DNA of 64,000 nt. It comes from an uncultured Thalassolituus sp. Lineage in GTDB: Bacteria > Pseudomonadota > Gammaproteobacteria > Pseudomonadales > Oceanobacteraceae. The notes beneath the pieces were generated by a model. The model saw nothing but the letters and a program-made list of their open reading frames with translations, had not been told where the DNA came from and did no database searches. The stretch covers positions 1-64,000 of the forward strand of contig NZ_CATMFB010000001.1 of assembly GCF_950066645.1 (NCBI RefSeq), given 5' to 3'. Positions 12,211-26,713 of the stretch are shown here, in pieces; the stretch's first letter is position 1; the number at the start of each line of letters is the position of its first letter. Both the position numbers and the translations under genes were made by a program.

Positions 12211-12936
12211 TCAGAGCTTAATGCTGTCCTTAATACGGGTCAGCAGTTTCACCCCCATACCTTTCACACGCAGCAGTTCGTTCGGGCTGGTGTACGGACG
12301 GCCGGCCACAATTGCTGCCGCCAGTTTCTCAGAAACGCCTTTCAGTTCAGCAACGTCAGCAACAGACGCATCGTTGATTGAAATCAACTCAATGCTGCCT
12401 TTCTTTTTTGCCGACTTTTTAGCAACAGACTTCGCTTCAGCTTTGGCTTTTGGCGCGGTTTTAGGAGTCGCTTTCGCTTTTGGCTGTTCTGTTTTTGGTG
12501 TTTCTGTCCTGGCGACAGGCGCAGCTTTTTTCACTGGTGCCGCAACTTTTTCTGTGCGGTCTGCAATTTCACAGAAGGCCACCGTATCGTAGGATGCGCC
12601 ATTCCATTCACGCAGCATGACCACAGGTCGTTCTGCCTGATTGCTGAAGGTCAGATTAATCAGGTCATATTCACAGGCAGGGTAGCAGTACCCGGACGTC
12701 AGTGTGCCAACTGTAAAGCCCGCCAGCGGCTCACCATTGAAATCGCCACCACTGTAGGGCGCATCGAGGTCCCACAGTTCAATACGTAAAGTACCGCTGA
12801 TGTTCCCTTCGGCACGGTTGTTCATAATAGCTGGCATATCCAGCTGAACGCGCCCGAAGCCCATTGTGATTGATGGTGTACCTTCAAGGCGGATGCCAGA
12901 GGCAAGTTGTGTTGGTTTCTGGAGTTGCAGTTCCAT
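12211..12936 (-). CDS. Helix-hairpin-helix protein with novel N-terminal beta domain
   Basis: 241 residues with no signal peptide. Residues 1-125 form a beta-rich domain with a CYPAC motif that I do not recognise. Residues 130-182 are a low-complexity Ala/Lys/Pro/Thr linker of the histone-tail type. Residues 185-241 are a helix-hairpin-helix domain (SINDASVADVAELKGVSEK, then GRPYTSPNELLRVKGMG) like the ComEA/PulK DNA-binding module. The architecture suggests a cytoplasmic nucleic-acid-associated protein. A Pho-box promoter lies 44 bases upstream, suggesting phosphate control, and a terminator follows the gene, so it is probably a single-gene unit. Confidence 0.75.
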   Translation of the reverse strand: MELQLQKPTQLASGIRLEGTPSITMGFGRVQLDMPAIMNNRAEGNISGTLRIELWDLDAPYSGGDFNGEPLAGFTVGTLTSGYCYPACEYDLINLTFSNQAERPVVMLREWNGASYDTVAFCEIADRTEKVAAPVKKAAPVARTETPKTEQPKAKATPKTAPKAKAEAKSVAKKSAKKKGSIELISINDASVADVAELKGVSEKLAAAIVAGRPYTSPNELLRVKGMGVKLLTRIKDSIKL

Positions 12937-13010: not shown

Positions 13011-13889
13011 TCACAACCTGGCAACATCCACAGACACAGTCATAATCGGATCGGTGCCACCACCGAAGATTACCCCCTTCAGCGGCGTCACATCATAATA
13101 ATCTCTGCCCCAGGCGGTGATGATATGCTGTTCACCTGCCATGCAGTTATTGGTCGGATCAAATTCAAACCAACCTTCTCCCGGTGAAAATACCGACAGC
13201 CAGGCGTGCGACGCATCAGCACCGACCATCTTTTCCTGCCCCGGAGGCGGCAGTGTTTCGAGATAACCCGACACGTACTTTGCGGCAAAGCCCAGAGCCC
13301 GCAGACAACCTATCTGCACATGTGCGAAATCCTGACAGACGCCTTTGCGGTTCTTCATAACTTCGGAAATCGGGGTGGCGATCGTCGTCGCCAGTGGCGA
13401 ATATTCGAACTCAGAGTAGATACGTTCGGTCAGTGCCGCCACCGCCGACAGCAGCGGCCGGTCATCTGTGAACAGATCGGCAGCAAAGTCACGCAATTCT
13501 GCGGACGCCCGCACCATGGCAGAGTCCAGCTGAAATTCGCGGGCAAGGATGACTTCTTCCAGACGTGCCTGCTGCATCTGGCGTCTTGCTTCGGCACATG
13601 TCCGCCCCAGATCCAGATTGGTGTCTCCGATCTGCGAGTGTGTTTCAACCTCACTGGTGGCCGTAATCACCAGCTCGCGATGCGGCTTCTGAATTTCAAA
13701 GTGATAGGCGGTATTGCCAAAATAGTCTTCGCGACGGGAACCCGCGGCGACAACCGGCGTGACGTCGATGCGTGAGTTATGACAGGTCTGACGGCGAGAG
13801 CTTCGCGGGGTCATCTGCGCCAGGTTGTAGCAGTGTGACACCCTTCCGGCGTATTTGTATTCAGTGATGTGACGGATACGGTAGCGCAT
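13011..13889 (-). CDS. Transglutaminase-like cysteine protease/amidase, last gene of ATP-grasp operon
   Basis: 292 residues. A bacterial transglutaminase N-terminal domain (residues 1-80, starting MRYRIRHITEYKY) precedes a transglutaminase core. The catalytic triad is visible: Cys185 in RKGVCQDFAH, His228 in ASHAWLSVF and Asp244 in FEFDPTNN. There is no signal peptide. I chose the ATG at 13889, which forms a TGATG overlap with the upstream fusion gene and has GGGAGG before it. Proteins of this type in such operons are thought to hydrolyse or exchange amide bonds made by the partner ATP-grasp enzymes. The substrate is unknown. Confidence 0.88.
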   Translation of the reverse strand: MRYRIRHITEYKYAGRVSHCYNLAQMTPRSSRRQTCHNSRIDVTPVVAAGSRREDYFGNTAYHFEIQKPHRELVITATSEVETHSQIGDTNLDLGRTCAEARRQMQQARLEEVILAREFQLDSAMVRASAELRDFAADLFTDDRPLLSAVAALTERIYSEFEYSPLATTIATPISEVMKNRKGVCQDFAHVQIGCLRALGFAAKYVSGYLETLPPPGQEKMVGADASHAWLSVFSPGEGWFEFDPTNNCMAGEQHIITAWGRDYYDVTPLKGVIFGGGTDPIMTVSVDVARL

Positions 13890-16396
13890 CAGAGGCCCTC
13901 CCAACGGGCGGTAACCAGCTGCTGAGATTCTTCACGGTGATCGAAGTAACGGTCACTGATCATGTCACTGATCTGCATCAGGTTGTCTCCCAGAGCCGCC
14001 ATCGCCTCTCTCAGTCCCTGTCTTTCGCCGTCCTGATCCGCGGTTAACTCGCTCAGAATCGACAGACGGATATGAGTTGCACAGCTGACTAACGCACGTT
14101 CGGCAGGAGGAAGCTCATGCAGGAAGCCCTTATTGTTAGGCAGTTTACGGACATGTATCAGCATCTGATCCAGCTGATACAGCAGCGATCTTGGGTTGTC
14201 GGTATCCAGCATCACCAGGTCGAGTCCGGTCTGAATCGCAGTGCGGGCGCCATACCGCCGACGATAACTGATCAGCCCTTCCAGGGTTAACAGCAGGGCT
14301 TCTGTCATGCGCGACTGCTCCGGCTCCGCCAGGACTGGCCCCAGGAGTTCACCCATCATGCCCGAGCTCTGCAACGCCCGTTCGAGACGTCGGCCCAGCT
14401 CCATAAAACGCCAGCCATAGCCCCGCATCATACTTTCATGATTAAGGCCCGACAGCGCCATTAAGGCAGTTACAAGAGGGTCAATCACTTCATCCGCGGT
14501 ACGGTAATCGTCCGGTGCAGCATTCAGCACCGGCAGAGCGTCACGGATGTCATTGATCACCCGGTAGGTATCCGAAGACAACAGCTCTTTGGCTTCATCC
14601 GCACAGAAGAGCATGCTGTTCAGCACCCCGGCAATGGCATGTGGAATCGCGCCTTCGCGCAGCAGTACTCCCATCGCTTCATCTGACTCCGGCAGCGGGG
14701 GTACCGCGGTAGCCGCAATGCTCGACAGTGAACGCAGCAGATAAGTACGCATGGCGGGTGTAACCGGCTCTTCGCCATTCAACAGGGCATGGGTCGTACG
14801 CAACAGACGCAGTGCAGCCTCTGCCCGCTCCGCATAGCGCCCCATCCAGTAAAGGTTTTCCAGCACCCGACTCGGCAGGTTAATCATGTCGGCTTCACGT
14901 GCCGCCTGATCTTCCGCAGGCTGATTGGTGATCAGCCGCTCGGGTTCCGAGGCCACCACCCAGGTGTCCTTACTCGATGCACCAGTCTGACTGGAGATGA
15001 TAAACGCACCCTCATCCAGCCCTACCCGGGTAAGGCCGCCGGGCATCACACTGTATGAGCTGGTGCCAGCCACCGTAAAGGTACGTAGAATTCCCGGCCG
15101 TGGGGTCAGCACCGCGCCATCCAGCGTCGGGATATAGCTGGCGCCAATGACCGGTTGTGCAACAAACCCCAGCGGGTTCTGCATAATACGGGCTTTAAGC
15201 GCGTCCAGTTCTTCTGCGGTCGCCTGTCCGGCATTGATACTCAACTCACCCGGACGACGGTTGATGGGTTTAATCACCATTTCCTGCAGATGCTCAAGGA
15301 CATACGCTTTGTCCTGTTCATCGCCACACCAGTAGGTCTGTACCGTCGGCATCCGCAACTCACGACCCAACAGTGCCTTGCTGATACCCGGCAGATATTT
15401 CAGCAGTACCGGGTTTTCCAGTACACCGGAGCCGAGCGGATTAGCGACCACCAGATTCCCGGAGCGGACCACCTCCAGCAATCCGGGCACCCCGAGGCGT
15501 GAATCACTGCGCAGTTCTACCGGGTCACAGAACCAGTCATCGACTCGCCTGAGTAGCACGTCAACGCGATTCAGGCCGTCGAGCGATTTCATCCACAGGA
15601 AACCGTTCCGGACAATCAGGTCGTCGCTCTGAACCAGATAGAAACCCAGGTAATTCGCGATGTAGGCATGTTCGAAATAGGTTTCGTTGCGTGGACCCGG
15701 GGTCAGTACCGCCACCCGCGGACGGGCACGGTTTGGGCACAGGCTCAGCAGCTTCGAGCGCAGCTGCTGAAAATACGCCGCTAACCTGTGAACATGACTG
15801 TCGCGGAACAGACTGGGGAACGTCCGGGACATAACGGTGCGGTTTTCCAGTGCATAACCAGCACCACTCGGGCATTGAGTGCGGTCAGCCAGCACCAGCA
15901 TATTGCCGTCCGCACCACGTACCATGTCCACCGCGTGGGTGATCAGTTCATGCTCGCCGGGGGTACGGACGCCCTGACAGGCGCGCAGAAAACCACGATG
16001 CGAAAAGAGCGCCTCAGGCGGCAATACTCCCGTACGGATCAGCGTACGCGGGCCGTAGAGGTCACGCAGCAGAAGGTTCAGCAGCTCAGAGCGTTCCAGC
16101 AGCCCCGCCTCAATGTCCGCCCACTCTTCGCTACTGATGACGTTGGGAACCAGATCCAGACCCCAGATCCGGGGGGGATTAATATCGTCACTGTAGACGT
16201 TATAGGTCGCACCATCATCCCGCAGCAGTCGTAATGCTTTACTCTGACGTTCTGCAAGCGCATCTGCGGGCAGCGCAGACAGGCTGTCCAGCACATACTG
16301 CCAGTGTGGCAATACCTGCCCCTCGCTGTCGCGGATATCATCCCCCGCCCGGTCGAGCGGGGGGTAATGAAGGTTCAGTTCGGATTCGCCGGACAT
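13889..16396 (-). CDS. Fusion of circularly permuted ATP-grasp domain and alpha-E domain
   Basis: 835 residues. Residues 1-490 are a circularly permuted ATP-grasp domain (PSGAGYALENR, RPRVAVLTPGPRNETYFEHAY, SSQTGASSKDTWVVASEP). Residues 508-835 are an all-helical alpha-E domain (NLYWMGRYAERAEAALRLLR). Compared with the separate ATP-grasp protein at 20802-22265, the metal-site motif LEDN is LADR (169-172), and the glycine-rich loop after KPxN is RRPGELS instead of ESGGYGM. This copy may therefore be catalytically altered or use another substrate. It lies 59 bases after the large transglutaminase and is coupled by TGATG to the last gene. Confidence 0.88.
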   Translation of the reverse strand: MSGESELNLHYPPLDRAGDDIRDSEGQVLPHWQYVLDSLSALPADALAERQSKALRLLRDDGATYNVYSDDINPPRIWGLDLVPNVISSEEWADIEAGLLERSELLNLLLRDLYGPRTLIRTGVLPPEALFSHRGFLRACQGVRTPGEHELITHAVDMVRGADGNMLVLADRTQCPSGAGYALENRTVMSRTFPSLFRDSHVHRLAAYFQQLRSKLLSLCPNRARPRVAVLTPGPRNETYFEHAYIANYLGFYLVQSDDLIVRNGFLWMKSLDGLNRVDVLLRRVDDWFCDPVELRSDSRLGVPGLLEVVRSGNLVVANPLGSGVLENPVLLKYLPGISKALLGRELRMPTVQTYWCGDEQDKAYVLEHLQEMVIKPINRRPGELSINAGQATAEELDALKARIMQNPLGFVAQPVIGASYIPTLDGAVLTPRPGILRTFTVAGTSSYSVMPGGLTRVGLDEGAFIISSQTGASSKDTWVVASEPERLITNQPAEDQAAREADMINLPSRVLENLYWMGRYAERAEAALRLLRTTHALLNGEEPVTPAMRTYLLRSLSSIAATAVPPLPESDEAMGVLLREGAIPHAIAGVLNSMLFCADEAKELLSSDTYRVINDIRDALPVLNAAPDDYRTADEVIDPLVTALMALSGLNHESMMRGYGWRFMELGRRLERALQSSGMMGELLGPVLAEPEQSRMTEALLLTLEGLISYRRRYGARTAIQTGLDLVMLDTDNPRSLLYQLDQMLIHVRKLPNNKGFLHELPPAERALVSCATHIRLSILSELTADQDGERQGLREAMAALGDNLMQISDMISDRYFDHREESQQLVTARWEGL

Positions 16397-16455
16397 GTGA
16401 ACACTCTGTGATGTCAGATAAGGCTTTTATTATGGCAGATCGTTCACAACAAGAC

Positions 16456-19400
16456 TCAGCTACGTCGCCGCGTCCGCAGGTCCAGCGTTAACGGATACTC
16501 ATCGTATGATTCTTCCGGTGGCGGCGCCATAGGACGCGGCGTGGTATGCGGGAAGAACTGACGCAGAGCATCAACATCCGGACGCGGAGTGAATGGCCCC
16601 TGAGTATGGCTCAGATCATCGAAACGGTTACCCCGGCGGGACTCCGCTTCAAAGGCATTCACAGGGAAGGTGTCATAACTACGCCCGCCCGGATGCGACA
16701 CATGGTATGTACAACCACCCACCGAACGTCCGTTCCAGGTATCGATAAGATCAAACACCAGCGGCGCATGAATATCGATGGTCGGGTGCAGTGCCGACGG
16801 CGGAGCCCAGGCTTTATAACGCACACCGGCAACAAACTCACCATGCCGACCGGTACTGCGCAGCGGCACCCTGCGACCGTTACAGGAGAGCACGTAGCGA
16901 CTGCCCGTCATACCGCTCACGCGTACCTGCAGACGCTCCACTGAAGAATCCACGTAGCGCGCCGTGCCTGAGCTGGTCACTTCTTCACCGAGAACATTCC
17001 AGGGCTCAATCGCCCAGCTCAGTTCCAGCTGGATATCATCGAGTTCAACGCGACCGTAGTTCGGGAACCGGAACTCACGGAAAGGCAGCAGCCACTCCGC
17101 ACGGAAATCCAGACCATGAGACTGAAGATCGTCAGCGACTTCCTTCACGTCCTGCCAGATGTAGTGAGGCAGCATAAACTGATCGTGCAGGCGCGTTCCC
17201 CAGCGTTCCAGCTTCTGCTTGTACGGCTGTTTCCAGAAACGGATCACCAATGCACGCAGCAGCAGAGCCTGCACCATGGCCATACGACTATGAGGCGGCA
17301 TTTCGAAGCCACGGAATTCAAGAATCCCCAGACGTCCGGTGGAACTGCCCGGCGCAAACAGTTTATCAATACAGAACTCTGCCCGGTGGGTGTTGCCCGT
17401 CAGGTCGATCAGCAGGTTACGCATGATGCGGTCCACCAGCCATGGCTGAGCGACTTCCCCGTCAGGCATCTGCTGAAACGCAATTTCCAGCTCGTACAGT
17501 GATTCATCACGACCTTCATCGACACGAGGCGCCTGACTGGTTGGCCCCACAAAGGCACCAGAAAACAGATACGACAAGGAAGGATGGTTCTGCCAGTAAG
17601 TAACAAAACTCCGCAGCAGATCCGGACGACGCAGCAGCGGACTGTCTGCAGGCGTCGAACCACCCAGCGTAATATGATTACCACCACCTGTGCCGGTATG
17701 ACGGCCATCAAGCATAAACTTCTCTGTCCCCAGACGGGACTCACGCGCCGCCTGATAGAGTTCTGTCATGTTGCTGACCATATCACGCCAGTTGGTCGCC
17801 GGGTGAATATTCACTTCAATCACACCGGGGTCTGGCGTCACCAGCAGTTTCTGCAGACGATGATCTTTCGGCGGCTCATAGCCCTCGATAATCACCGGCA
17901 GATCCAGCTGCTCTGCGGTTTCTTCAATAAGCGCCAACAGATTGATGTAGCTTTCAAGGTACGGCAGCGGTGGCAGGAAGATATGAATTTTACCTTCACG
18001 CGCTTCCACACAGAGTGCCGTGCGCACCAGGTTCTTCCACAAGTAGCCATCGTCACGAGGATTGCCTGACTTATCCGTGCCCGCTTTCTGCGGCTGGGTC
18101 AGTTGCGCAGTCCTGGTACTCAGTGCCTCTACACGCTCCAGCGCCACCTGAACGGCATGCGCAGCCGTTTCGAGCGGGTCTGTTTCACGCATAGGGTCTG
18201 CTTCCTGCGGCAACCGGTCTTCATCAGCGATCGGCGGCAGGCTGTCCAGCGGTAAGCGCAGGCCGACCGGAGAATCCCCGGGGATCAGGGTCAGGCGCTC
18301 GCGACGGAACTCCCACCGGCTCGACTGCCAGCGGTGCGCGTAAAAATCCCATTCCACCGGAATCACAAAGCCCGAAGGTGTATCCAGGCCCTGCTCCAGA
18401 ACCCGTGCCAGACGACGTCGATCCAGACTGTCTTTGGCAGAAGCGATATGCGCATCAACCCCCGGAGGCAGGTTCTGCTCCTGCAGCAGGTAGTGCAGGC
18501 CATCTTCGTACGCAGGGTGCACGCAGAAATCAGCAATCCCCATCAGGGTGGCGAGGCGCTGAGAGAACAGCTCCGCATCGCGATGGCTGTGGCCGTAATT
18601 TTTGTCCACCCGCGCAAGATAGTCCTGGCGCTGCCAGAGCGGCTCGCCATCGGTACGCCAGAACAGGCCCAGCGCCCAGCGTGGGACTTCCTCACCCGGA
18701 TACCACTTGCCCTGCCCGTAATGCAGCAGGCCTTTGGGCGCAAAATGATCCCGCAGACGCAGCAGCAGTGTCTTCGCCAGCGAAAGTTTCTCTTTGCCCA
18801 GGGCTGCGGTATTCCACTGTGCGGATTCCATATCATCGATCGATACAAACGTTGGCTCACCCCCCATGGTGAGACGCACGTCGTTTTCCAGCAGCAGCTT
18901 GTCGACCTTATCGCCCAGAGCCAGAACATCGGCCCACTGGTCATCGGTATAAGGTTTGGTCACCCGCGGATCTTCGTGAATCCGGGACACTTCATTGCTG
19001 TATGAAAACTCAACTTCACACTCATCGGTGAAGCCACTGATCGGAGACGCAGACACAGGATCAGGCGTACAGGCCAGAGGAATGTGACCCTCAGACGCGA
19101 ACAGACCCGAGGTGGGATCAAGGCCCACCCAGCCTGCGCCTGGCAGGAAGACTTCGCACCAGGCGTGGAGATCTGTGAAGTCGGCTTCCGGACCCGATGG
19201 ACCGTCCAGTGATTTTTCATCTGACGTCAGCTGCACCAGATAACCTGAAGCAAAACGTGCCGCCAGCCCCATGTGGCGCAACAGCTGCACCAGCAACCAG
19301 GCGGAATCACGGCAGGAGCCTTTCATCAGCGTCAGCGTTTCTTCCGGCTCCTGAACGCCGGGCTCAAGGCGCACGCCGTACTCGATCATTTCCTGCAGAC

Positions 19401-19851
19401 GCTGGTTAATCGCCACCAGAAAATCAATCGTACGTGTCTCTTTGCGTGGAATACTTTCCAGCAGTTCGGTGAACTTATCGCCTTCTACGGTGCAGGCGAG
19501 ATACGGCTCCAGCTCATGATGAAGCTGCTTGTCATAGCGGAACGGGAAATTTTCGGCGTATTCTTCGATGAAGAAGTCGAATGGGTTGATCACTGTCATC
19601 TCAGCGATCACTTCTACCTCGACGGACAACCGGCGGGTCTTCTCAGGAAACACCAGGCGCGCCTGGAAGTTACCGTAAGGGTCCTGCTGCCAGTTAAGAA
19701 AATGCTCTTCCGGACCAATCTTCAGACTGTAGCTTTTGATCGGCGTGCGGCTGTGTGGCGCAGGGCGCAGCCGCACCACATGCGGCGACAGGTTAACCGG
19801 GCGATCAAAATCGTAATAGGTATTGTGCTGTATAGCGACGGTAATCGTCAT
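16456..19851 (-). CDS. Large transglutaminase/DUF2126 protein
   Basis: 1131 residues. The order is a transglutaminase N-terminal domain (1-90), a transglutaminase core with Cys180 (LMKGSCRDSAW), His229 (DLHAWCEVF) and Asp245 (VGLDPTSG), and a long C-terminal DUF2126 region (about residues 300-1110). DUF2126 contains conserved MGGEPTFVSIDD, DGRHTGTGGGNHITLGG and EFRGFEMPPHSRM; the glycine- and His-rich segments look like part of an active site, but I cannot assign a reaction. It lies 15 bases after the alpha-E gene, with CAGGA before the ATG. No signal peptide, so probably cytoplasmic. Confidence 0.9.
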   Translation of the reverse strand: MTITVAIQHNTYYDFDRPVNLSPHVVRLRPAPHSRTPIKSYSLKIGPEEHFLNWQQDPYGNFQARLVFPEKTRRLSVEVEVIAEMTVINPFDFFIEEYAENFPFRYDKQLHHELEPYLACTVEGDKFTELLESIPRKETRTIDFLVAINQRLQEMIEYGVRLEPGVQEPEETLTLMKGSCRDSAWLLVQLLRHMGLAARFASGYLVQLTSDEKSLDGPSGPEADFTDLHAWCEVFLPGAGWVGLDPTSGLFASEGHIPLACTPDPVSASPISGFTDECEVEFSYSNEVSRIHEDPRVTKPYTDDQWADVLALGDKVDKLLLENDVRLTMGGEPTFVSIDDMESAQWNTAALGKEKLSLAKTLLLRLRDHFAPKGLLHYGQGKWYPGEEVPRWALGLFWRTDGEPLWQRQDYLARVDKNYGHSHRDAELFSQRLATLMGIADFCVHPAYEDGLHYLLQEQNLPPGVDAHIASAKDSLDRRRLARVLEQGLDTPSGFVIPVEWDFYAHRWQSSRWEFRRERLTLIPGDSPVGLRLPLDSLPPIADEDRLPQEADPMRETDPLETAAHAVQVALERVEALSTRTAQLTQPQKAGTDKSGNPRDDGYLWKNLVRTALCVEAREGKIHIFLPPLPYLESYINLLALIEETAEQLDLPVIIEGYEPPKDHRLQKLLVTPDPGVIEVNIHPATNWRDMVSNMTELYQAARESRLGTEKFMLDGRHTGTGGGNHITLGGSTPADSPLLRRPDLLRSFVTYWQNHPSLSYLFSGAFVGPTSQAPRVDEGRDESLYELEIAFQQMPDGEVAQPWLVDRIMRNLLIDLTGNTHRAEFCIDKLFAPGSSTGRLGILEFRGFEMPPHSRMAMVQALLLRALVIRFWKQPYKQKLERWGTRLHDQFMLPHYIWQDVKEVADDLQSHGLDFRAEWLLPFREFRFPNYGRVELDDIQLELSWAIEPWNVLGEEVTSSGTARYVDSSVERLQVRVSGMTGSRYVLSCNGRRVPLRSTGRHGEFVAGVRYKAWAPPSALHPTIDIHAPLVFDLIDTWNGRSVGGCTYHVSHPGGRSYDTFPVNAFEAESRRGNRFDDLSHTQGPFTPRPDVDALRQFFPHTTPRPMAPPPEESYDEYPLTLDLRTRRRS

Positions 19852-19866
19852 GGCGAATCCTGCCTG

Positions 19867-20802
19867 TTACTGGTCTGTAAGGAACCAGGTAGTACCGATC
19901 AGAAAGTGCAGTTGCTGAATGGCAATCTGCAGGTCATTAAGTTCATCGCGGAACTCAGTGCCATATTCCTCATGTTCAAAGTTACCCATGACAACACGAT
20001 GAACCTTGCGTATGGCCGCAATCACTTTTTCCGAACGGGGCAGAGCCTCCGCAGCATTAATCAGTTCGCTCAGGCAAAAACCGACCGAACGCGGGAAGTG
20101 AGGATCTGTCATCAGAAACTCCACCACTTTCGGCCCCTTGATTGAGCTGCGCATAGCACGACGATACGGCTGGTCGGCATTCAGTGAGCGGACAACATTC
20201 CCCCAGATAATCTGGCGGCTGTTCACCGCGTGCTCATCATCTTCGACCTGCATGATGGCGGCAACGCCCGCATCCAGATTCCGGGTCGTCATGTCGGCTC
20301 GCTCAATGTTCTGGCCAAGCATCAGCATTTCCCAGCCTTCGTCCCGAGGCATACTGACGTACAGCAGACCTGCGATCTGCTGGCAGGATTTGATCAGGTA
20401 TTCGAGAAATTCATGACGATTACTGCGGTTGATGCCCTGCGCCAGGTTCTCCTGAACATACAGGCTCAGTTCATTAACCAGCTCCCAGGCCTCTGCGGGG
20501 ACCACATCGCGCGTGGTGCGGATGTTCTCGCGGATTGCGCGCAAGGAAGATACGACAGAGCCAGGATTGGAATCATCACCAATCAGGAATTTCACCACGT
20601 TACGCTCGTCCTGAACGGTATAGCGCTCAGCAAACGCAGATTCGAGGCTGTTAATGACGATCAGGTTATACCAGCCCAGGTTAACCTGACGCGGCATATC
20701 AAACAGCAGCATGTCATAGATGCTGACCAGGCGTGCTGTGTTCTCTACCCGCTCAAGATAACGGGCAGCCCAATAAACGCGTTCTGCAACTTTTGAAAGC
20801 AT
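19867..20802 (-). CDS. Alpha-E domain protein
   Basis: 311 residues, all helical, starting MLSKVAERVYWAARYLERVENTARL, the signature start of alpha-E (DUF403) proteins. These are found only with circularly permuted ATP-grasp and transglutaminase partners, and were proposed to help peptide or amide formation. The start codon overlaps the ATP-grasp stop as TGATG, so the two are translationally coupled and probably form a complex. The fusion gene at 13889 carries a second alpha-E domain covalently linked to an ATP-grasp domain. Confidence 0.9.
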   Translation of the reverse strand: MLSKVAERVYWAARYLERVENTARLVSIYDMLLFDMPRQVNLGWYNLIVINSLESAFAERYTVQDERNVVKFLIGDDSNPGSVVSSLRAIRENIRTTRDVVPAEAWELVNELSLYVQENLAQGINRSNRHEFLEYLIKSCQQIAGLLYVSMPRDEGWEMLMLGQNIERADMTTRNLDAGVAAIMQVEDDEHAVNSRQIIWGNVVRSLNADQPYRRAMRSSIKGPKVVEFLMTDPHFPRSVGFCLSELINAAEALPRSEKVIAAIRKVHRVVMGNFEHEEYGTEFRDELNDLQIAIQQLHFLIGTTWFLTDQ

Positions 20803-22265
20803 CAGGATTTACTCGTTCCGGTATCTACAATCCAGGTGTCTTTACTGCCACCGCCCTGAGAAGAGTTCACCACCAGCGACCCCTTCTTCATTGCCACCCG
20901 GGTTAATCCACCGGTGGTGACATAACTGTCTTTGCCCTGAAGGATGAAGGGTCGCAGGTCGAGGTGTCGTGGCTCGACTTTATTACGACCAATCAGTGTT
21001 GGAGCAGTCGACAGTGCCAGCGTTGGCTGAGCAATGTAGTTACGCGGGTTCGACTTAATCAGATCGGCAAACTGCTCCCGTTCCTTTTTCGTAGAATGAG
21101 GCCCGACGAGCATGCCGTAGCCGCCAGACTCGTTCGCCGGCTTGACCACCAGCTTATCCAGATTCGCCAGGACATATTCACGTTGCTTATCGTCGTAGCA
21201 GAGGAATGTTTCGACGTTCGGGATCAGTGGATCCTGATCCAGATAGTATTTGATAATTTCCGGAACGTAGGCATAGATCACCTTGTCGTCGGCTACGCCC
21301 GCACCCGGAGCATTTGCCAGTGCGACCTTACCTTTGCGCCAGGCGCGCATCAGCCCGGGGACACCCAGTACAGATTCCGGATGGAAGACTTCCGGGTCAA
21401 GGAACATGTCATCAATACGGCGATAAATAACGTCCACACGCTCAAGACCAGCGATGGTCTTCATGTATACGCAGTCGTCTTTACCGACGATCAGGTCGCT
21501 GCCTTCTACCAGCTCAGCCCCCATGCGCTGCGCCAGAAAAGCGTGTTCAAAATACGCTGAGTTGAAAATGCCGGGCGTCAGTACCACCACAACCGGGCGC
21601 TCGTCTTTGCGCGGAGACAAAGAGGCAAGCATGTTAAACAGGTTCTCCGGATAATCACCGACCGGGGCAATATTCACCTTTTCAAAGACTTCAGGAAGAA
21701 CTCGCTTCATGATCGACCGGTTTTCAAGCATGTAAGACACGCCCGACGGTACCCGCAGGTTATCTTCAAGAACGTAGAACTGGCCATCCTTATCGCGCAC
21801 CAGATCGGTGCCGCAAACGTGTGCCCACACACCAAAGCGGGGCGATACGCCCTCACACTCTTTGCGGTAGTTCTTCGACTGTTTCAGCACAAACTCAGGA
21901 ACGATCCCATCTTTCAGAATCTTCTGATCGTGGTAGAGGTCATCGATAAACATATTCAGCGCCTGCAGACGCTGCTTGAGCCCTTCTGCCGTTTTATCCC
22001 ACTGATTACGGGAAATGACACGCGGAACAATATCAAACGGCCAGGCACGGTCGATATTCCCACCCTCGGTATAGACGGTGAATGAAACCCCCATGTCTTT
22101 GATGGTGGATTCCGCCGCAATCTTCCGGGAGAGAATATCTTCTTCGGTGAGGCTACTCAGATAGTTTGCCAGCTGGCGCGCTGGCTGACGGGCATTTCCG
22201 GGAGAGCTGATCAGCTCATCGTAGAATCCGTCCTGCAGTTCATACTGCTTCCAATCGATAGACAT
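20802..22265 (-). CDS. Circularly permuted type 2 ATP-grasp protein
   Basis: 487 residues. It has the full set of motifs: VLEDNLRVPSGVSYMLENR (Glu167 and Asn169 as expected metal ligands), VVVVLTPGIFNSAYFEHAF, VDVIYRRIDDMF, the ATP loop KPANESGGYGM (Lys375 onward) and SSQGGGSKDTWIVD. ATP-grasp enzymes ligate a carboxylate, via acyl phosphate, to an amine. I placed the start at 22265 (MSIDWKQYELQDGFYDE), with AGGAAG just before it, rather than at a frame beginning at 22325. It is the first gene of the five-gene operon 22265-13011. Confidence 0.9.
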   Translation of the reverse strand: MSIDWKQYELQDGFYDELISSPGNARQPARQLANYLSSLTEEDILSRKIAAESTIKDMGVSFTVYTEGGNIDRAWPFDIVPRVISRNQWDKTAEGLKQRLQALNMFIDDLYHDQKILKDGIVPEFVLKQSKNYRKECEGVSPRFGVWAHVCGTDLVRDKDGQFYVLEDNLRVPSGVSYMLENRSIMKRVLPEVFEKVNIAPVGDYPENLFNMLASLSPRKDERPVVVVLTPGIFNSAYFEHAFLAQRMGAELVEGSDLIVGKDDCVYMKTIAGLERVDVIYRRIDDMFLDPEVFHPESVLGVPGLMRAWRKGKVALANAPGAGVADDKVIYAYVPEIIKYYLDQDPLIPNVETFLCYDDKQREYVLANLDKLVVKPANESGGYGMLVGPHSTKKEREQFADLIKSNPRNYIAQPTLALSTAPTLIGRNKVEPRHLDLRPFILQGKDSYVTTGGLTRVAMKKGSLVVNSSQGGGSKDTWIVDTGTSKS

Positions 22266-22334
22266 AACTTCCTGTCTCAACAGGTAAACGACACATAACC
22301 CACGACGAAAAACCGCCGCTGCCAATCAGACCGC

Positions 22335-22376
22335 AATATACACACCCGGGTCACACAAGAATGTCACATTTGTCAC
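22335..22376 (-). promoter_or_regulatory. Possible activator-dependent promoter of the ATP-grasp operon
   Basis: A -10-like TATATT (22335-22340 on the minus strand) lacks a good -35. Three GTCAC repeats (plus-strand positions 22350, 22363 and 22372) lie just upstream of it, at about -23 to -48 relative to a start near 22328. The repeat spacing is 13 and 9 bases, so it is not a classical Pho box. The last repeat runs into the stop codon of the gene at 22373. Confidence 0.3.
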
Positions 22377-22763: not shown

Positions 22764-23711
22764 GTGACTCTGAGATTGCTGTTCAGTCTGATCACAGTTC
22801 TGTCCCTGAGCGGCTGCCTCCAGGAGGATACGCCCCTGCGTATCGGTACGAACGTATGGCCGGGCTACGAGCTACTATATCTTGCGAGAGATAAAGGGCT
22901 GCTGCCGGAAAATCACGTCCGGCTGGTTGAACTGCCCGCAGCGACCGATGTGATGGAGGCCGTCATGGTTGGCCGGCTGGAAGGCGCCGCAGTGACGCTG
23001 GATGAAGCCATTCGCCTGCGCGAGCGTGGCGCCCCCGTGGTCGTCATTCTCGTCTGCGACATATCAGATGGCGCAGACGCCGTACTCGCCCGGGAATCGG
23101 TCAGGGACCTCGCCGATATCAAAGGCCGCGTTGTGGCTGTTCCCTTTGATTCTGTCGGGCTGCTCGTTCTGGACGCTGCTCTGACAGAAGCGGGCCTGAC
23201 GCTCAACGATGTTACTCTGCGCGACGTTCCGCCGGGTCACCATGTGTCTGTGCTTGAACAGGGTAAAGCCGATGTACTGGTCAGTTTCGAGCCCTTCAGC
23301 AGCCATCTTCGTGACCGCGGTGCAGTCACCCTGTTCGACAGCTCTGCCATTCGCGGACGCATTGTCGATGTGCTGGTCGTACGTCAGGAGGCAATCGACG
23401 ATCACCCGGAGAAAGTCAGTTCGCTGACCCGCGGTTTCCTGGAGGGACGGCGGGTACTTATGGCACACAGAGAAGAGAGCCTTGCTCATATCAACCGCCG
23501 CCTGCAGTTATCCCCTTCTGAGCTTCAGACGGTGTATAACAAGCTTCATATTCCCGGTGCAGAAGAAAATAAACGCCTGCTGGATAAAAGCAGTGGACGC
23601 CTGATCCGCACCTCCGAAGCTCTGACCACCCTCATGAAGCTTAACGGAATGCTGGGCTCACCTCCTGATCTGAGCGGTTTTATCACCGACGAATTTATTC
23701 CGGAGCCCTGA
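22764..23711 (+). CDS. ABC-type substrate-binding lipoprotein (NMT1/SsuA-like)
   Basis: 315 residues. The lipoprotein signal ends in LSGC (Cys18). The fold is that of NMT1/THI5/SsuA-like periplasmic binding proteins: RIGTNVWPGYELLYLARDKG at the start, LVELPAATDVMEAVMVGRLEGA, and VAVPFDSVGLLVLDAALTEAGL in the second lobe. No permease or ATPase gene is adjacent. Instead a GGDEF-EAL gene starts 2 bases after its stop, so it probably acts as a ligand sensor feeding the membrane-bound second-messenger enzyme rather than in import. The start is a GTG with AAGGA rather far upstream. Confidence 0.85.
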   Translation: MTLRLLFSLITVLSLSGCLQEDTPLRIGTNVWPGYELLYLARDKGLLPENHVRLVELPAATDVMEAVMVGRLEGAAVTLDEAIRLRERGAPVVVILVCDISDGADAVLARESVRDLADIKGRVVAVPFDSVGLLVLDAALTEAGLTLNDVTLRDVPPGHHVSVLEQGKADVLVSFEPFSSHLRDRGAVTLFDSSAIRGRIVDVLVVRQEAIDDHPEKVSSLTRGFLEGRRVLMAHREESLAHINRRLQLSPSELQTVYNKLHIPGAEENKRLLDKSSGRLIRTSEALTTLMKLNGMLGSPPDLSGFITDEFIPEP

Positions 23712-23712
23712 A

Positions 23713-26145
23713 ATGCAGCAGCGCTCCATTACCCTGATTCTGCGCAACTGGTCGGCCCTTATGCTTGGGGTAGTGATCATCTCGCTCGGGTATTTTCTGC
23801 TGCAACTGCGCCTTGATCACTTCGAGGAATCCTGGCACCACCGCATTCTGTTTGAACTGGAGTCACTCCAGAATACGATCGAAAGTAACTACTCAGATCA
23901 CGACCAGATTGCCGCGGACAGTCAGCTGGCTCTCATGGCCACCGATCATCAGGTTCACTATCTCGCGCTCTTCTCTGGCGAGAACAACAACACCCTGTTG
24001 AGCACGCGCCGCGCTGATATCCAGAACACGCTGCCGGTCCGCCTCGGCGAACTGAGTCTGAACCCGGATGTCCGCATGATTCAGATTGAACGGCACCTGA
24101 ACAATTTCTACGTACTCTATCCGGTACGGCTCAAAAGCCAGGACCCACTGCGTCCTCAGAATGCTTGGCTATACGCCCACTACGATGCCGACCGCGATTA
24201 CCGCATGATGCTCCTGTCGACGGCAGGCAAAGTTCTGCTGATGGCGCTTCTGGTACTGGCGTATCTGTTGATACAGAATCAGCTGGTCAAACAGTATCTG
24301 ATTAACCCCATCCGCAACCTGGTACGGATAACGACGTCGCTACAGGAGGGGAAGCTCGGGCAGACGACCAAGACCGCTGCTTCTGTGGAGCTGGGAAAGC
24401 TCGAAGATGCGGTGAATGAACTCAGCATTCACCTGGCAACTTCCCGCCTGCAGATCCAGCAACAGCAGGCCCTTACCTCAGCCTTCACTCTTGCCTTCCC
24501 GGATGTCGGCCTAGTAGTCAACAGCAGCGGTATCATCCGCGGCCGCTTCGGAAATCAGTCCAGCCCGGTCATACGTCTCAACAGCGACCTGATAGATACC
24601 CCATATACCGCCTGGGCAAACCTGTCTGAGGTACACGCGATTGAACAGAGCCGGCGCCGCGCACTGGATACCGGAGAGCTGATCGTGCATGAGTTCCGTC
24701 ACGATGACCTGTGCCTGGAATCCCGCATGGTCCCACTGCCGGAGGAGGAAGGCGATGAGGGCGAAAAGCGCGGTATCATCTGGCTGATCCGTGACATCAC
24801 TGACCTGAAGCGCAAGCAGCAACTGATCGAGTACCAGGCGAATTATGATCCACTGACCGATCTTGCCAATCGCCGGATGGCGCTGCAGGAGCTGGACCGC
24901 CGGGTGCACGAAGCGGCCCAGAAAGCGCTCTGGGGGGCTGTGCTTTTTATCGACCTCGATCACTTCAAAACGATCAACGACTCACTTGGACACCCCATTG
25001 GTGACCGCCTGCTGATTGATATGTCCCGCCGGTTAAAAGACTGTGCTGCCGACGGCGACCTGATTGCCCGCCTTGGGGGTGATGAATTTCTGGTGATCTC
25101 CGGCGAGCTGGCGACCAACGCTGACGAAGCGGGAAGGCTCGCCATGCAGCTGGGTGAACGCCTGTTGGACACCATCCGTCAGCCGGTCATTATCGACGTC
25201 AATAATTTCCACCTGTCTGCCAGTATCGGGATCGCGCTGTTTCCAACCAGCGCATGCAGCGCCAACGATCTCGTTCGCCAGGCGGATACCGCTATGTACC
25301 GGGCCAAGAAGGAAGGACGCTCGCGTATTTCAACCTACAACAGCCATATGCAGGAAGAAACGCGGGAGCGACTACACTTATTTAATGACCTCTACCAGGC
25401 AATTCAGGAAGAGGCTTTCACTCTGGTGTTCCAACCTCAGGTTAACGCCAGTGGCGAAATCACGGGGGCTGAAGTGCTCTGTCGCTGGATCAATCGCGGC
25501 CAGTCGGTATATCCGGATGTCTTTATCGCCGCTGCCGAAGAGACGAATCTTATTCTGCCGCTGGGTGACTGGGTACTTGCCCAGGCCTGCCGCGTACTGA
25601 GCGAATGGCACAGCCAGAACTGCCTGCCTGAAAGCTTTCGTAAGCTGGCAGTGAACATCAGTGCCGCACAGTTTATGGCTCAGGATTTTGAATCTCAACT
25701 GATGCAGACCGTCCAGGCCAGTGGTATTTCCCCTGACATGCTGGAACTGGAGCTGACGGAAAGCCTTTTCATGGGCGACAAAGACCTGATCAGAGAAAAG
25801 ATGCAGCGCCTGCACGAACTCGGCTTTACCTTTGCGCTGGACGACTTCGGCACCGGTTACTCTTCACTCAGCTATCTGCAGAAACTCCCCATCGACAAAC
25901 TTAAGATCGACCGCTGCTTTGTCATGGACATCGAAGGCGACGCTCCGCAGGCCAGTATTGTTGATGCCATCATTCAGCTCGGCAGTAATCTGAAGATGGA
26001 AATCATCGCAGAGGGAGTAGAGTCACAACAGCAAAGGAATTACCTCTGCGACCAGGGGTGCCTGTTATACCAGGGATATCTGTTCAGCCGACCACTGCAG
26101 GAAAAGCGGTTCCTCTCGTTTATCAATCCCGCCAGTCCCTCCTGA
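23713..26145 (+). CDS. Membrane-bound dual GGDEF-EAL cyclic-di-GMP enzyme
   Basis: 810 residues. First helix about 15-33, periplasmic sensor region about 34-168, second helix about 170-190 and HAMP about 190-245. A poorly conserved PAS-like segment follows, then GGDEF (intact GGDEF near 455-459) and EAL (starting as GAEVLCRW, with NISAAQF, ELTES, DDFGTGYSS and AEGVE). GGDEF lacks the upstream RxxD inhibitory site. The EAL core residues for phosphodiesterase activity look complete, so either activity is possible. It is coupled to the lipoprotein gene just upstream, its likely ligand-sensing partner. Confidence 0.92.
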   Translation: MQQRSITLILRNWSALMLGVVIISLGYFLLQLRLDHFEESWHHRILFELESLQNTIESNYSDHDQIAADSQLALMATDHQVHYLALFSGENNNTLLSTRRADIQNTLPVRLGELSLNPDVRMIQIERHLNNFYVLYPVRLKSQDPLRPQNAWLYAHYDADRDYRMMLLSTAGKVLLMALLVLAYLLIQNQLVKQYLINPIRNLVRITTSLQEGKLGQTTKTAASVELGKLEDAVNELSIHLATSRLQIQQQQALTSAFTLAFPDVGLVVNSSGIIRGRFGNQSSPVIRLNSDLIDTPYTAWANLSEVHAIEQSRRRALDTGELIVHEFRHDDLCLESRMVPLPEEEGDEGEKRGIIWLIRDITDLKRKQQLIEYQANYDPLTDLANRRMALQELDRRVHEAAQKALWGAVLFIDLDHFKTINDSLGHPIGDRLLIDMSRRLKDCAADGDLIARLGGDEFLVISGELATNADEAGRLAMQLGERLLDTIRQPVIIDVNNFHLSASIGIALFPTSACSANDLVRQADTAMYRAKKEGRSRISTYNSHMQEETRERLHLFNDLYQAIQEEAFTLVFQPQVNASGEITGAEVLCRWINRGQSVYPDVFIAAAEETNLILPLGDWVLAQACRVLSEWHSQNCLPESFRKLAVNISAAQFMAQDFESQLMQTVQASGISPDMLELELTESLFMGDKDLIREKMQRLHELGFTFALDDFGTGYSSLSYLQKLPIDKLKIDRCFVMDIEGDAPQASIVDAIIQLGSNLKMEIIAEGVESQQQRNYLCDQGCLLYQGYLFSRPLQEKRFLSFINPASPS

Positions 26146-26269: not shown

Positions 26270-26713
26270 ATGATGGATAAAGCCACCATGACCGAAACCA
26301 TCATCGCGCAGAAACTGGCCAAAGGCCTGAGCTGGGAAACGATGGGCACCGACCTTGGTATGTCGCCAGTCTGGCTGACATCTGCCTGTCTGGGCATGAA
26401 CAGTGCACCAAAAGAGAAGGCCGCAGCGATTGCCGAATATCTTGGCCTGGGCAGCGACGTCGCCACCGCACTGGAGGCTTACCCGACCAAAATCTGGGAT
26501 CAGGCCGTTCCGACTGATCCGCTGGTCTATCGTCTCTACGAAATCGTGGGCGTCTATGGAGAGACATTGAAAGAAGTGATTCAGGAGAAGTTCGGTGACG
26601 GCATTATGAGCGCCATCGACTTTTCGATGGAGGTCGACAAAATCGAAGATCCCAAAGGTGACCGCGTACTGTTAACGCTGAATGGCAAATTCCTGCCCTA
26701 CAAGAGCTGGTAA
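26270..26713 (+). CDS. cynS: Cyanate hydratase (cyanase)
   Basis: 147 residues. It converts cyanate and bicarbonate to ammonia and CO2 via carbamate. An N-terminal helical domain (1-75) and the catalytic C-terminal domain are present, with Arg88 and Glu91 (LVYRLYEIVGVYG) and Ser114 (GDGIMSAIDFSM) corresponding to Arg96, Glu99 and Ser122 of the E. coli enzyme. AGGAG lies 7 bases before the ATG. No cyanate transporter or carbonic anhydrase gene is adjacent, unlike the E. coli cynTSX operon. The convergent LysR-type gene ends 3 bases after it. Confidence 0.97.
   Translation: MMDKATMTETIIAQKLAKGLSWETMGTDLGMSPVWLTSACLGMNSAPKEKAAAIAEYLGLGSDVATALEAYPTKIWDQAVPTDPLVYRLYEIVGVYGETLKEVIQEKFGDGIMSAIDFSMEVDKIEDPKGDRVLLTLNGKFLPYKSW

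Follow-up and report, generated by a model that had tools for sequence, protein, structure and literature searches.

A five-gene ATP-grasp, alpha-E and transglutaminase operon in Thalassolituus, tentatively read as a make-and-break pathway for amides under nitrogen stress

The window analysed here is a stretch of 64,000 nucleotides from an uncultured Thalassolituus sp. (contig NZ_CATMFB010000001.1, positions 1 to 64,000), and its subject is an operon of five minus-strand genes at 13011-22265, labeled A to E in order of reading. My tentative interpretation is that the five genes encode a pathway that makes and breaks amide bonds under nitrogen stress. The ATP-grasp ligase A with the alpha-E protein B, plus the ligase domain of C, would use ATP to activate carboxylates for coupling to amines; C and E, through their transglutaminase-type sites, and the proteasome-like protein Anbu, encoded elsewhere in the genome, would later cleave or transfer the bond; and D, a fused copy of the A-B pair, would be a non-catalytic scaffold or regulator of A-B. 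By analogy with known enzymes, the benefit is likely to be the capture, storage or recycling of nitrogen at scarce ammonium. The types of chemistry are supported by sequence and models; the kinds of substrate proposed, the way the flux runs and what D does are inferences.

The layout had been described in an original prediction made from the letters of the stretch, and direct sequence reading and Pfam searches bear it out, the positions matching exactly. TGATG overlaps join A to B and D to E, and spacers of 15 and 59 bases separate B from C and C from D. Gene A matches CP_ATPgrasp_2 (PF14403, 6.3e-167) and PF04174 (1.9e-139), gene B Alpha-E (PF04168, 2.7e-75, over its cut-off), gene C Bact_transglu_N, Transglut_core and DUF2126 (E 0), gene D both CP_ATPgrasp_2 (PF14403, 2e-148) and Alpha-E (PF04168, 1.1e-63), and gene E Bact_transglu_N (PF08379, 4.4e-26) and Transglut_core (PF01841, 8.2e-19). 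Genome-wide, at E <= 0.001, there are two alpha-E and two Bact_transglu_N matches, all inside the operon. The absence of a precursor gene from its interior, as predicted, is confirmed, the genes leaving no space for a small one, and no RNA element in the window matched Rfam at the gathering threshold.

Table 1. Features of the operon in the window, and two protein families recurrent in the flanks of the compared loci (aa, amino acids).
Feature	Position	Strand	Remarks
Weak sigma54-like GG-N10-GC element	22332..22347	-	82 bases before A start; score 10.5 of 15.5
Gene A, circularly permuted ATP-grasp ligase	20802..22265	-	487 aa; ATG start; catalytic-type residues conserved
Gene B, stand-alone alpha-E protein	19867..20802	-	311 aa
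Gene C (whole), transglutaminase and DUF2126	16456..19851	-	1131 aa
Gene C, N-terminal part, transglutaminase-like domain	19027..19851	-	triad C180/H229/D245; PF08379 and PF01841
Gene C, C-terminal part, DUF2126, modelled glutamine-synthetase fold, predicted amide ligase	16456..19026	-	
Gene D, ATP-grasp/alpha-E fusion, both halves degenerate (putative pseudo-enzyme)	13889..16396	-	835 aa
Gene E, stand-alone transglutaminase-like protein	13011..13889	-	292 aa; triad intact
Peptidase_Mx cluster			loci L056, L058, L070, L076, L081, L086, L123, L131, L134, L137, L138, L149
267-445 aa protein			loci L050, L109, L110, L122, L126, L132, L146, L176

Gene A resembles the solved relative 3n6x_A (E 2e-157), and seven of its residues (E167, N169, K375, G381, G382, Y383 and G384) are all kept in 75/75 A sequences, window included; I take E167 and N169 to resemble the metal-binding E-x-N of ATP-grasp enzymes. 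Gene B is modelled as an all-helical protein (predicted local distance difference test score, pLDDT, 93.5) with the motif R91-E92-N93-R95, and the window B carries the residues conserved in stand-alone alpha-E proteins. By sequence, alpha-E gave no match in the PDB. Its fold neighbour, the nitrate/nitrite antiterminator NasR, which would point to a NIT-type sensor, is a lead only, with a score below the ~13 that helical bundles can reach by chance and a Foldseek E of ~1.

None of the 104 D sequences keeps all seven of the A residues, the maximum in any one being three. E167 is retained in 2/104, N169 in 0/104 and K375 in 48/104 (the window D included), and the window D has A, R, K, P, G, E and L at the seven positions. 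In the alpha-E half, R91, E92, N93, R95, R174 and W200 are found in 72-77 of 77 B sequences versus 2-16 of 103 D sequences, N110 being less lost (76/77 versus 31/103). For these counts each sequence was assigned to A or D by its best profile score, an assignment then checked by tree, and domains below a set length were removed. The ATP-grasp domains of A and D form two clades (FastTree support 1.0), mean identity is 0.40 for D versus 0.60 for A (1596 pairs, 57 loci), and D is the more variable in 99% of locus pairs, while holding near-invariant residues of its own. Among the genomes listed, each of the 37 that carry a D-type alpha-E carries a B-type one too, as read by eye. Judged from these sequences, D is an ancient fused duplicate of A-B, retained although its conserved ATP-grasp and alpha-E residues are gone, and it is best read as a non-catalytic partner of A-B. 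The original prediction counted the two ATP-grasp proteins as two ligase modules; given the residue loss in D, the second ligase-type site would instead be the DUF2126 of C, so that two such sites remain. The degeneracy of D was not found in print in the searched literature, where a query for pseudoenzyme with ATP-grasp led only to a tubulin ligase case.

The two predicted transglutaminases stand, with the Cys-His-Asp triad intact in 140/140 C and 118/119 E sequences. In C, as modelled, this site is joined in one chain to a glutamine-synthetase-fold domain: DUF2126 models with that fold and carries GEP, E, GxGxH-like and E-x-R motifs in glutamine synthetase order (a correspondence of motifs and their order rather than of structurally aligned residues), whose roles I presume to be those of glutamine synthetase. 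DUF2126 is predicted to be an amide ligase. Members of the glutamine synthetase superfamily such as gamma-glutamylmethylamide synthetase have the fold and motif order in common with it; DUF2126 differs from them by an identity of ~10%, extra domains and its fusion to the transglutaminase-like domain. The bifunctional glutathionylspermidine synthetase/amidase also has a ligase and a cysteine amidase on one chain, and the solved relative of A, 3n6x, is named putative glutathionylspermidine synthase; in C, however, the ligase has the glutamine-synthetase fold rather than ATP-grasp and the hydrolase-type domain is transglutaminase-like. Both enzymes serve as analogies for the logic of nitrogen capture. 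When DUF2126 was compared with the PDB by sequence profile, the best candidate, a lincosamide resistance protein (E 0.044, 45 residues), was judged a chance match, and the word DUF2126 was not found in the searched literature.

Conservation was followed in 141 loci centred on DUF2126, comprising the window, 60 Pseudomonadota stretches (from 60 of the 63 DUF2126 genomes in a 200-genome Pseudomonadota sample) and 80 named loci, ranked best among at least 593 candidates; these loci are not phylogenetically independent. Gene C was matched in 8/8 other genomes of the genus examined (only partially in G203), and all 7 loci taken from these 8 genomes have A-B-C-D-E in order. Across the 141 loci, the five genes share this order and strand in 16, window included, and C-D-E are consecutive in 84, counts that are lower bounds because of contig ends and in which adjacency means consecutive among recognised core genes, so that other genes may intervene (citrate synthase does in three methylotroph loci). 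Being kept across the genus and recurring in the same order beyond it, the operon is not a chance arrangement. By the titles of the named loci, the hosts of gene C include gamma- and betaproteobacteria, Desulforhopalus, Cytophagales, Flavobacterium, Planctomycetes, Verrucomicrobia, Nitrospirota and Acidobacteria.

The gene set is probably under nitrogen control, a link absent from the original prediction, as is Anbu. Upstream stretches were scored for the -24/-12 site of sigma54, with weights set for this analysis, the usual consensus and three thresholds tried. Scores of at least 13.0 of 15.5 were found at 32/59 A and 24/73 C starts versus 26/492 flanking genes (Fisher 3e-20 and 1e-10), and at 2/23, 3/15 and 1/15 of the D, E and Anbu starts; with shuffled bases, the full set of 232 upstream stretches gave 3%. 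A GG-N10-GC element lies 75-89 bases before A in 5/7 other genus loci (L190 and L192-L195, not L191 or L196). The published data, cited here and below from excerpts of the papers, mostly agree on the nitrogen link, with the part of sigma54 disputed. In Pseudomonas putida, nitrogen limitation raises PP_2686-2688 by 11-37 fold in the wild type and in relA/spoT and rpoN strains, NtrB/NtrC being the putative regulator (PMC7801951), PP2685-2687 are 6.6-11.1 fold higher when chemostats are limited by nitrogen rather than carbon (PMC3325844), and PP_2685 and PP_2688 are higher on nitrate than on ammonium (PMC8050072). In Burkholderia cenocepacia, an ntrC mutation lowers I35_5080-5083, which are listed among the common targets of sigma54 and NtrC (PMC5491218), and in marine metagenomes these domains associate with urea-metabolism domains (PMC3597751). 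A cyanase gene near the operon (26270-26713, plus strand), present in 6/7 other genus loci taken, is a second nitrogen-scavenging link.

Several observations weigh against the proposed pathway and its control. The promoter in the window has no consensus -24/-12 sigma54 site, the best score being 10.5 of 15.5. NtrC-type boxes are rare, but commoner at A and C starts than at controls (8/132 versus 5/483, p 0.002), and show no difference among starts with a sigma54-type site (6/56 versus 3/34 controls). The P. putida rpoN mutant still raises PP_2686-2688 14-20 fold, which argues against simple sigma54 dependence in that species, and PP_2685 is almost unchanged (1.12) in the wild type of the same study (PMC7801951). 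Foldseek gave no DUF2126 match at E <= 0.001, and hhalign of DUF2126 against glutamine synthetase and GCS2 gave no signal, the positive control of GCS2 with glutamine synthetase being also without signal. ATP hydrolysis, whose absence the original prediction named as a refutation, has a partial answer in a relative only: the purified Yersinia bercovieri ATP-grasp protein releases phosphate from ATP, but neither glutamate nor glutamine speeds the release, which could simply be ATPase activity, and co-expression pull-downs of the Y. bercovieri operon proteins gave no specific complex, according to excerpts of PMC6376114. The Anbu structure paper prefers protein degradation over peptide synthesis (PMC5666114). 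Finally, no product or substrate of the gene set was found in the searched literature since 2009.

The same families and gene adjacency were described, according to quoting papers, as the amidoligase association of Iyer et al. 2009 (circularly permuted ATP-grasp, alpha-E and transglutaminase), and its reading as a peptide synthesis or modification system (quoted in PMC5666114, PMC3597751) supports the peptide- or amide-modifying association invoked in the original prediction. The operon belongs to this association and is not a new system; added here are the degenerate D, the glutamine-synthetase-fold model of DUF2126 and the recurrent upstream sigma54-type sites. The association is said to occur with DUF2126 or Anbu. 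The searched literature held no functional study of the gene set, one search being swamped by the name Anbu.

A published four-gene operon (PP_2685-PP_2688 in P. putida, also in Y. bercovieri) includes Anbu (PMC6376114, PMC5666114). Its A and B are of the same families and its induction by nitrogen limitation is known; here, in contrast, Anbu is unlinked, and C, D and E replace a simple transglutaminase gene. The Anbu gene of this genome lies on another contig (L035:8834-9547, contig C2), away from its usual partners, so that the predicted completeness of the operon holds for its five genes and does not extend to Anbu. The neighbour of this stand-alone Anbu reads, by eye from its translation, like a ferrochelatase gene, and in a relative (L202) Anbu stands divergent beside A. 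Excerpts of the Anbu structure paper report that expression stayed unchanged in several other conditions (PMC5666114).

Anbu is central to the main rival explanation, which I regard as somewhat unlikely: A-B (and C) would mark proteins with a small amide-linked tag, the transglutaminase-type proteins would remove or swap it and Anbu would degrade or trim the tagged proteins, protein turnover rising under nitrogen starvation. Tagging was proposed in the Anbu papers (PMC6376114, PMC5666114), and Anbu, fragments included, lies within 30/141 loci. Among the 200 Pseudomonadota genomes, 112 have alpha-E, 63 DUF2126 (all with alpha-E), 68 Anbu and 35 all three; 67 of the 68 Anbu genomes hold alpha-E, as tagging would have it, but Anbu goes unmatched in 28/63 DUF2126 genomes, and alpha-E genomes with Anbu carry DUF2126 no more often (35/67) than those lacking it (28/45, p 0.34). 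These counts suggest A-B as the core, with C/D/E and Anbu as independent additions. Against tagging, too, Anbu of three bacteria had no peptidase or amidase activity on standard substrates in excerpts of PMC6376114, and no small tag family emerged. The original prediction had suggested comparing genomes for a co-conserved small peptide or protein: 1648 flanking open reading frames of at least 50 aa were clustered, and of the 19 clusters found in at least 4 of the 141 loci the shortest has a median of 168 aa, a search that short fast-changing peptides, or genes under longer spurious reading frames, could escape.

It is unlikely that the operon makes a peptide natural product or storage peptide, two ligases assembling a short storage or signalling peptide or amide and the transglutaminases shaping it. 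Two ligase folds and two transglutaminase-type sites would suit such a product, as would the published reading of the association as a peptide synthesis system. However, among the 10 representatives of the 19 recurrent flank clusters that were checked against Pfam, transporters are represented by a single ABC cluster, present in 5 loci at a median distance of 2371 bases, the spread of gene C over several phyla is unusual for a natural product, and a nitrogen-rich product would be oddly timed at nitrogen starvation. That D is catalytic after all, by altered ATP binding or other chemistry that would give three ligase-type sites, is very doubtful: it keeps 41/110 A-invariant columns (including R183, E240, D257, D290, R438 and D476), its own near-invariant residues and, in 48/104, K375, but nearly all D sequences have lost the glycine-rich loop and both putative metal-binding E-x-N positions, and D varies more than A.

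Within the preferred amide make-and-break pathway, a more specific arrangement would make the dead copy D an obligate regulatory or substrate-holding subunit of A-B, in a nitrogen-starvation complex that passes an intermediate to C, whose ligase and transglutaminase-type site would form and cleave the same amide. I consider this rather improbable; if true, it would mean that several bacterial phyla share an unrecognised way to capture nitrogen or to carry out gamma-amidation. For a gene set that spans such a range and whose product the searched literature since 2009 does not give, the scheme is now testable, with A and the DUF2126 half of C as candidate ligases, a pair of candidate bond breakers and one putative non-catalytic partner, and with active sites named that could be disabled to trap the product.

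The recurrent neighbours of the 141 loci are too restricted to define a pathway. A zinc-ribbon Peptidase_Mx cluster (PF15887 and PF10005 in tested members) occurs in 12 loci, sometimes abutting B. In 8 loci, a protein of 267-445 aa whose tested members have no Pfam match over the cut-off adjoins C, E, A or Anbu, and its weak match to Glyoxalase_4 (E 0.12) hints at a vicinal-oxygen-chelate fold. Citrate synthase stands beside C in four methylotroph loci (L109, L111, L113 and L117; one member Pfam-tested). In the window, a protein whose C-terminal part is a ComEA-like helix-hairpin-helix and whose N-terminal part is unassigned is encoded just downstream of the operon (12211-12936, minus strand). 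Divergent from A, an SsuA/NMT1-type binding protein (lipobox by eye) is followed directly by a GGDEF-EAL protein (22764-26145, plus strand), and the two are possibly a ligand sensor coupled to cyclic-di-GMP.
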